A stretch of 32,132 nucleotides of DNA from Actinomycetota bacterium (GTDB taxonomy: Bacteria; Actinomycetota; Humimicrobiia; JAHJRV01), in assembly GCA_018830725.1 (NCBI GenBank), contig JAHJRV010000047.1, forward strand, positions 1-32,132. The letters are read 5' to 3'. The position numbers and the translations under genes are program-made. Shown piece after piece: positions 967 through 32,132 of this stretch; the stretch's first letter is position 1; the number at the start of each line of letters is the position of its first letter. The notes below the pieces were generated by a model, which was given only the letters and a program-made list of their open reading frames with translations, was not told the DNA's origin and did no database searches.

Positions 967-1025
967 TATAGAATACATAAATTTAACAATGTATAAAATT
1001 CTAATTTTAAAAAGAAGTATTGAAT

Positions 1026-1138
1026 GATTTGGGCATAGTTTCTCCTTTCCCCTTCGTTACACTCGAGGGTCAATTCCCCTCCCTTTATGGGAGGGGGTAG
1101 GGGGAGGGTAAAATGTCTTCGAAACCATGCCACAAATC
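1026..1138 (+). repeat. Dispersed inverted-repeat element, copy 1
   Basis: The left arm GATTTGGGCATAGTTTC (1026-1042) is an imperfect reverse complement of the right arm GAAACCATGCCACAAATC (1121-1138). Between them lies a hairpin of CCCCTCCC and GGGAGGGG around a TTTAT loop, then a run of four G-tracts (1089-1108). It sits between two glycosyltransferase genes and its right end overlaps the false upstream ATG of the next gene. The same arms and core recur at 4612, 6246, 20100 and, reversed, 31949. Confidence 0.85.
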
Positions 1139-1154
1139 TCTGAAGAGAATTAAA

Positions 1155-4611: not shown

Positions 4612-4749
4612 AGATTTGGGCATAGTTTCTCAACTAATTATCCTCTCCCTTGGTGGGAGAGGGAAGGAGAACTTCTCTTATGATTCCCCTCCCTTTATGG
4701 GAGGGGGTAGGGGGAGGGTAAAATGTCTTCGAAACCATGCCACAAATCT
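4612..4749 (+). repeat. Dispersed inverted-repeat element, copy 2
   Basis: At 138 bp this is the longest copy. The left arm AGATTTGGGCATAGTTTC (4612-4629) pairs with the right arm GAAACCATGCCACAAATCT (4731-4749). It has two internal hairpins. One is CCTCTCCC/GGGAGAGG near 4642-4663, which is absent from the other copies. The other is the shared CCCCTCCC/GGGAGGGG hairpin followed by the four G-tracts at 4689-4708. It lies in the gap between the fused GT4 gene and the next GT2 gene. Confidence 0.85.
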
Positions 4750-6245: not shown

Positions 6246-6301
6246 AAGCTTTGGGCAAAGTTTCTTGACTAAATGTCTTCGAAACCATGCCACAAAGCTT
6301 T
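6246..6301 (+). repeat. Dispersed inverted-repeat element, minimal copy 3
   Basis: This copy is almost only the two arms. The left arm AGCTTTGGGCAAAGTTTC (6247-6264) and right arm GAAACCATGCCACAAAGCT (6281-6299) are separated by 16 bases. It lacks the G-rich core but keeps the conserved ATGTCTTC before the right arm. The outer stem pair differs from copies 1 and 2 on both sides (C with G instead of A with T), so the pairing is preserved. Confidence 0.8.
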
Positions 6302-20099: not shown

Positions 20100-20202
20100 A
20101 GCTTTGGGCATAGTTTCTCCCCTTGTTTTAATTGATTCCCCTCCCTTTATGGGAGGGGGTAGGGGGAGGGTTAAAATGTCTTTGAAAATATACCACAAAG
20201 CT
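20100..20202 (+). repeat. Dispersed inverted-repeat element, copy 4
   Basis: The left arm AGCTTTGGGCATAGTTTC (20100-20117) and right arm GAAAATATACCACAAAGCT (20184-20202) bracket the same CCCCTCCC/GGGAGGGG hairpin and four G-tracts (20151-20170) as copies 1 and 2. The right arm is diverged (ATATACC in place of CCATGCC) and matches the arm of copy 5, suggesting a subfamily. It fills the secA-prfB gap. Confidence 0.85.
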
Positions 20203-26421: not shown

Positions 26422-26764
26422 GGGGGTGAATTGGCTTCGACGGGGAAATCGAAGCAAAAGTTGCAAGTCGAGGACCAGATCCTCGTAAGAAGCTGGAAAA
26501 ACATATAAATGCAGAACCTGCATACGCACTAGCCTAAAAAGGCTACATTCTTAAAGTTTTGTCTACGGACTTTAGTGAATGCCGGTAGTAGACTATCTCA
26601 CATCTTTACTTCTGAGGAAGATGGGAGTGAAAAGATACTCGGAATAGCAGTTGGTTATGTATTTCTGTATATAAACCAAATAGCGAATTTTAATACAGAA
26701 TAAACTTGTAGATACTTCTGATAGATTTCTTCGGACCCGGGTTCAATTCCCGGCACCTCCACCA
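26422..26764 (+). ncRNA. ssrA: tmRNA (SsrA)
   Basis: The RNA starts GGGGGTGAA, pairs with the 3' CACCTCC, and ends ACCA; both halves form the tRNA-like domain, including the T-arm GGGTTCAATTCCC. Pseudoknot 1 shows CGAGGA (26469-26474) pairing with TCCTCG (26480-26485), and loop CCAG with CTGG (26493-26496). The predicted tag codons run 26511-26534 with stop TAA at 26535-26537, reading AEPAYALA. The bases ATAAAT before the GCA resume codon keep the A-4, U-5 and A-6 of the E. coli resume context. The stop lies in the loop of a TAGCC/GGCTA hairpin, as expected. The tag is short (8 residues) and ends ALA rather than ALAA. Confidence 0.96.
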
Positions 26765-31913: not shown

Positions 31914-31948
31914 TTATTTTTTATTTCATTAAAAAAAGTTTTATCAAT

Positions 31949-32061
31949 AGCTTTGTGGTATATTTTCAAAGACATTTTACCCTCCCCCCTACCCCCTCCC
32001 ACTAGTGGAGAGGGTAATCCTCCTCTCTCTTTACCTCTCTCATCAGGGGAAAGGCTATATA
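31949..32061 (-). repeat. Dispersed inverted-repeat element, copy 5 (reverse orientation, decayed left arm)
   Basis: AGCTTTGTGGTATATTTTC (31949-31967) is the reverse complement of copy 4's right arm. It is followed by the C-rich complement of the G-tracts (31980-32000) and a modified hairpin (CTCC-ACTAGT-GGAG). The expected other arm (GAAACTATGCCCAAAGCT) is not recognisable. Only a vague GGAAAGGCTAT occurs near 32049, so the far boundary is approximate. It starts 35 bases after tRNA-Arg. Confidence 0.7.
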
Positions 32062-32132
32062 TTTTAAAGTCTTATTAATACCTTTAGGGTGTATTTCTGA
32101 AGTTATTTTAAGATGAAATAAGATTTATTGAC

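Follow-up and report, generated by a model that had tools for sequence, protein, structure and literature searches.

A genus-restricted family of palindromic repeats with an exchangeable loop in low-GC Actinomycetota

The intergenic inverted repeats described here belong to a hairpin family with about 40 to 70 copies per genome, confined to one genus of low-GC Actinomycetota. We consider it probable (about 0.6) that this family is a MITE-like, non-autonomous, genus-restricted palindromic repeat that was spread and homogenised as DNA and whose loop is exchangeable. The window, that is, the whole stretch of 32,132 nucleotides that was analysed, corresponds to all of contig C47 of the source genome (G000; 171 contigs, 1.44 Mb). 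The original prediction counted five copies in the window: all five places exist and copies 1-4 are complete, but they are only the local share of a family with 42 right arms genome-wide. Three points were absent from that prediction, namely the G-rich repeat inserted in the loop, the single-genus range with species-specific arms, and an orientation that follows the genes.

The hairpin, its copies in the window and its range

The basic unit is a hairpin of 53-55 bp. Its stem starts with a helix of 7 pairs, separated by a bulged A from a second one of 11 pairs; a 2x3 internal loop and 3 further pairs follow, and a loop of 5-7 nt closes the hairpin. The bulged A is conserved, lies on the 3' arm and is a G in some copies. 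Among the 118 full copies in the stretches fetched, the loop measures 5-10 nt in about 80 and 30-129 nt in the remainder, which identifies the empty hairpin as the basic unit. The core had been described as dispensable, which is right, but the relation has to be inverted, the empty hairpin being the common form and the core an insert. Empty hairpins have predicted folding energies of -24 to -30 kcal/mol (z -4.3 to -6.4). The members found in the window are the following.

Copy 1, 1025-1139, plus strand: left arm 1025-1045, loop cargo 1046-1112, right arm 1113-1139.
Copy 1 cargo, 1046-1112, plus strand: module C, TTTCCCCTTCGTTACACTCGAGGGTCAATT, first, then G-rich module A at 1076-1108.
Copy 2, 4612-4749, plus strand: left arm 4612-4632, loop cargo 4633-4722, right arm 4723-4749.
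Copy 2 cargo, 4633-4722, plus strand: a module B-like segment at about 4642-4669 and module A at 4686-4718.
Copy 3, 6247-6299, plus strand: a hairpin with an empty loop, in the form of the basic unit, common to G000, G001 and G003.
Copy 4, 20100-20202, plus strand, in the secA/prfB gap: left arm 20100-20120, cargo 20121-20175, right arm 20176-20202.
Copy 4 cargo, 20121-20175, plus strand: contains module A at 20138-20170.
Copy 5, 31949-31975, minus strand: right half only, opposite to the neighbouring genes, adjoining tRNA-Arg and common to G003 (L100).
Modules attached to copy 5, 31976-32055, minus strand: two G-rich palindromic modules, A at about 31981-32013 and B at about 32019-32054.

The family arm patterns are AGATTTGGGCATAGTTTCTCG for the left arm and ATGTCTTCGAAACCATGCCACAAATCT for the right arm; pairs of arms at most 140 bp apart occur four times in the window and in none of 20 first-order Markov simulations of it. 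Copy 3 has a predicted minimum free energy of -26.4 kcal/mol (z -5.0), and the left and right arms of copy 4 belong to different subtypes. Copy 5 had been called reversed and decayed; it is indeed a right half on the minus strand with two G-rich modules, the second of which is missing in G003, but no recognisable left arm was found at this locus. Positions 1-60 of another G000 contig, C103, are near-identical to the window end (31916-32132), copy 5 included. Since a G003 contig (L100) joins the window end to C103, the assembly seems to be broken at the copy 5 repeat. The window also carries a tmRNA gene at 26422-26764, with the tag AEPAYALA.

In the G000 genome the right arm (at most 3 mismatches) occurs 42 times, copy 5 probably being counted twice because of the overlap with C103, and the left arm 40 times; the reversed-pattern control gave 0 for each. 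Three sister genomes of the same genus hold 54, 45 and 19 right arms, whereas 57 further genomes from the same class or phylum hold 0-2, the level of the reversed control. Identity among the four sister genomes is about 95% and 78%. A covariance model built from 74 copies matched 35-71 times in each of G000-G002, 22 times in G003, which is incomplete, and not at all in 36 further genomes of the class; some copies were matched on both strands. The named records containing the family are metagenome-assembled genomes labelled Actinomycetes bacterium (CSMAG_2450, CSMAG_2074 and RS_16_36); we take CSMAG, from the record name, to stand for cold seep, and thus call the hosts mostly cold-seep. Two single matches in Lachnospiraceae were taken as chance. 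Viral contigs searched with both arms matched neither, by which a phage origin was ruled out.

Half-copies with the break exactly at the loop are seen at L155:14084, L170:6307, L162:12153 and L065:1011. Right half-copies begin 1-5 nt past a stop codon, and left halves with their cargo sit just ahead of a start codon. An arrangement of left half, gene and right half, with the gene inside the hairpin, was rejected, the half-copies flanking genes without consistent pairing around one gene.

Loop cargo, gain and loss, and homogenisation

Nine orthologous hairpins have a filled loop in G000 and an empty one in at least one relative (loop lengths in nt).

Window copy 2: 90 in G000, 6 in G001 and 6 in G003.
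L156:1566: 40 filled, 5 empty.
L163:5670: 54 filled, 5 empty.
L165:4436: 54 filled, 5 empty; 7 in G002.
L167:19315: 67 filled, 6 empty; 7 in G002.
L172:1586: 40 in G000 and G001, 6 in G003; 7 in G002.
L027:137: 54 filled, 6 empty; 7 in G002.
L035: 69 filled, 7 empty.
Window copy 4: 55 in G000; empty in G002 (L202:6671).

At eight of the nine sites, 0-3 of the 42 bases in each flank distinguish the filled copy from its nearest empty sister; copy 4 was compared with the more distant G002. This outgroup is empty at five of the nine hairpins, so the cargo was gained. At several sites, among them L163:5670 and L027:137, private arm variants are common to filled and empty copies, and this retention of unusual arm bases indicates that the loop changed without the arms changing. 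By these alignments, the 'G-rich core' is cargo, an independent repeat inserted in the loop of the hairpin.

At least three unrelated palindromic cargo families occupy the loop, namely the G-rich modules A and B and a CCCCTTCGTTACACTCGAGGG module characteristic of G002, and cargo modules are also found in tandem. Comparison of the sequences shows that unrelated palindromic repeats have entered the loop many times. Genome-wide, 15 of the 32 A or B modules lie with both arms, 11 with one arm (one or two of these calls being possibly spurious) and 6 without arms, and all hairpin loops together make up well under 0.1% of the genome. We infer that the loop is a preferred acceptor of other repeats. 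Eight viral contigs also contain a B-like pattern, so the B module family is not limited to the genus.

Whole elements are likewise present or absent at the same site between sister species; copy 1, for instance, is entirely missing from the orthologous site in G003 (L120). The inserted tracts measure about 100-165 bp, AT-rich flanks included, and no clean or consistent target duplication was seen at the polymorphic filled and empty sites, where the AT-rich flanks blur the exact ends.

Arm types are species-typical even at orthologous sites, with TATAC/GTATA in G002 and CATAG/CCATG in G000, G001 and G003. A comparison of L165:9813 with L182:2449 shows a joint change in the two arms, against a single difference in the 42 bases of upstream flank. 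The species-typical arms and this joint change amount to concerted evolution. Divergence between orthologs is somewhat lower in the arms than in the flanks (e.g., 0.055 vs 0.085), which leaves room for purifying selection, at the level of a weak constraint.

Two further repeats were observed beside the hairpins. A second, unrelated palindromic repeat, CATTGCGAGGGACAAAGTCCCGAAGCAATCTC, often directly adjoins them (at L090, L088, L115, L116 and others) and is co-oriented with the genes in 13 of the 14 cases that fall in co-directional gaps. A GTCAGGTCTTGACATGAGACATATC repeat abuts the left arm, upstream of the hairpin, in many G002 copies (L095, L129, L028, L174), and in one comparison of G001 with G000 it entered along with the hairpin.

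Stem covariation and orientation

In an alignment of 74 distinct copies (A1), 92.7% of stem cells are paired. Cells changed on both sides number 107, compared to 41 after shuffling (a value of 107 was reached in none of 500 shuffles), and nine stem pairs vary on both sides; controls with a slid structure gave only 2-6 such cells. The two-sided change predicted at one stem position is confirmed at pair 11/64, which is C-G in 40, A-U in 26 and U-A in 1 of the 74 copies. The main alternatives at other pairs are C-G/U-A at 18/56, G-C/C-G at 22/52 and A-U/G-C at 30/43. The strong covariation agrees with the original proposal that the fold is selected or that the element is copied in folded form, and the refuting outcome named beforehand, only these copies and no covariation beyond chance, did not materialise. 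The family also shows that strong covariation in a dispersed repeat is by itself no proof of RNA function.

Selection on the sense RNA only should tolerate G.U pairs more than A.C pairs. Both are depleted alike, G.U being found 23 times (55 shuffled) and A.C 29 times (63 shuffled), one fixed A.C pair being set aside and the numbers being small. This favours, within these small numbers, a hairpin whose pairing would be kept at the DNA level rather than specifically in the sense RNA. The fixed A.C mismatch, at A1 columns 21 and 53 (left CATAG, right CCATG), occurs in half of the family, e.g., in the window at 6247-6299, and corresponds to a G.T wobble if read on the opposite strand.

The hairpins are dispersed between genes. 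Of the 105 full copies that lie in co-directional gaps, 101 have the orientation of both neighbouring genes and 4 the opposite one. Median distances are 30 nt from the preceding stop codon and 64 nt to the following start codon. The conserved asymmetry of the element (the bulged A, ATGTCTTC), together with this co-orientation, could mean a function at the transcript level, against the reading as a DNA repeat. Such a cis-acting RNA element would be an operon hairpin selected for its fold, which is processed (e.g., by RNase III) or shields the 3' end of the upstream message. We regard this as possible, if on balance doubtful. It would account for the co-orientation, for the placement between stop and start codons, for the presence of several copies within clusters of ribosomal-protein-like genes (L182, L165), and for the strong covariation, conserved bulge and stable fold. 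However, G.U is tolerated no better than A.C, entire copies are present in some species and missing in others, the loop can be anything from 5 to 129 nt long, and no Rfam 15 family matches the hairpin, by which a riboswitch or known structured RNA was also ruled out.

The orientation itself may be read otherwise. Neighbouring gene pairs are co-directional in 91% of cases, any one stretch has about 88% of its genes on the same strand, and the same lean is seen in two other types of repeat without known link to the hairpin, so that the hairpin orientation may only reflect replication, which again weighs against the RNA reading. Copies between minority-strand genes are too few to choose between transcription and replication as the cause of the bias. 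Two further RNA matches were seen: a selenocysteine tRNA gene (Rfam tRNA-Sec, L155:12960-13051) adjoins a hairpin in G000, the G001 hairpin being on its other side, and G002 has a glmS ribozyme match at L196:11573-11805.

That the copies are repeated Rho-independent terminators or attenuators seems extremely unlikely. Although they are GC-containing hairpins downstream of stop codons, no T-tract follows the stem in alignment A1, and a search for terminators in the first 8 kb of the window found none at copies 1-3. The location between secA and prfB and in other tight, gene-dense co-directional clusters on one strand argues against strong termination.

Candidate enzymes, related repeats and the likely nature of the family

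Genes for Y1 transposases are present in all four genomes (G000-G003), and at the one locus read completely (L215) the Y1 gene is accompanied by a TnpB-like gene, forming an ordinary TnpA/TnpB pair. No arms were found at the Y1_Tnp loci of the four genomes, and mobilisation by a RAYT was ruled out because the Y1 genes lack such hairpins. An RVT_1 gene was found in none of the four genomes, which are incomplete, and retro-mobilisation by a reverse transcriptase was ruled out since RVT_1 is missing. G000 holds one IS110-type (Transposase_20) gene, DDE_Tnp_1 gave only weak matches, and tyrosine recombinases (Phage_integrase) are present, the long ones (305-319 aa) being full-length and in the sister genomes. 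We read two of these recombinases, which were not subtyped, as housekeeping Xer. Consistent with the original prediction, no transposase at the Y1_Tnp, Transposase_20, DDE_Tnp_1 and Phage_integrase loci of the four incomplete genomes is flanked by the ends of the family; the sole exception near recombinase loci is a neighbouring hairpin beside one G001 recombinase gene.

Two enzyme-based alternatives bear on these searches. The family has terminal inverted repeats and is non-coding, intergenic and polymorphic, as expected of a classical MITE, here what internal deletion would leave of a DDE-type insertion sequence that has the same inverted repeats. We consider this origin decidedly unlikely, given that no full-length element with these ends was seen in the four genomes, that the DDE_Tnp_1, IS110-type and Y1 genes lack them, and that no target duplication is visible. 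It is highly improbable that the hairpins are attC-like sites, i.e., cassette hairpins that an integron-type recombinase would recognise in folded, single-stranded form: they do lie just past stop codons, are co-oriented and resemble attC in their variable terminal loop and in the extrahelical base of one arm, but RYYYAAC/GTTRRRY core sites are missing from alignment A1, the long tyrosine recombinases are read as ordinary Xer, and the copies are dispersed singly among housekeeping genes, with no cassette array.

The anatomy of the family is that of a MITE, with terminal inverted repeats in a short, non-coding, dispersed element. The ERIC or IRU element of enterobacteria is a 127-bp intergenic palindrome whose RNA acts in a manner that depends on orientation (PMC2229807). 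Our family resembles it as a short, polymorphic intergenic palindrome with a predicted RNA fold, but it is set apart by description, having 54 bp, a range of one actinobacterial genus and a loop that takes other repeats. REP and REPIN sequences are defined by a GTAG or CGTC tag beside the palindrome (PMC3733652); dispersed palindromes, species-specific variants, complementary stem variation and mosaics with other repeats are shared with REP, REPIN and BIME, whereas the tag is missing from alignment A1 and no RAYT gene is flanked by hairpins. For YPAL/RU-2 of Yersinia, insertion at or beside dyad symmetry has been described (PMC2229807). It is also a small palindromic element with filled and empty sites, but has 168 bp and target duplications, whereas here none are seen and the hairpin itself is the target. 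IS1397 and other insertion sequences target REP palindromes (PMC1525189), which are similarly preferred insertion targets; the incoming DNA in our family is instead a short non-coding palindromic repeat, found at the same loop spot in many copies. In kind, the family belongs with ERIC and REP among the small palindromic interspersed repeats, from which its exchangeable loop sets it apart. Of the classes originally proposed, MITE-like or REP-like is the best fit, while for a structured transcript element the equal depletion of G.U and A.C gives no sign of selection on the fold of the sense RNA specifically.

We hypothesize that the MITE-like repeat would be copied and corrected as a folded DNA unit, a single-strand hairpin or cruciform, by a trans-acting enzyme on single-stranded DNA or by template switching between copies. 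Such copying would keep the arms complementary without need for a cellular function, and the exposed loop would be the preferred place to acquire or exchange other repeats. In mRNA, the hairpin would be a tolerated intergenic structure with, at most, a mild effect on processing or stability. The failure to find an enzyme with these ends or a clean target duplication counts against this reading. A dedicated system, in which a single-stranded-DNA-processing enzyme specifically opens the loop and refills it with other palindromic repeats, and in which arms and cargo spread as independent modules, seems rather unlikely.

The family is one more of a known broad kind, and a clear example of the spread of small selfish or structural repeats. 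Across four genomes, one and the same hairpin may have an empty loop or carry one repeat or another in it, so that gain, loss and loop exchange can be read directly; for small palindromic repeats, this process is usually deduced from consensus sequences alone.
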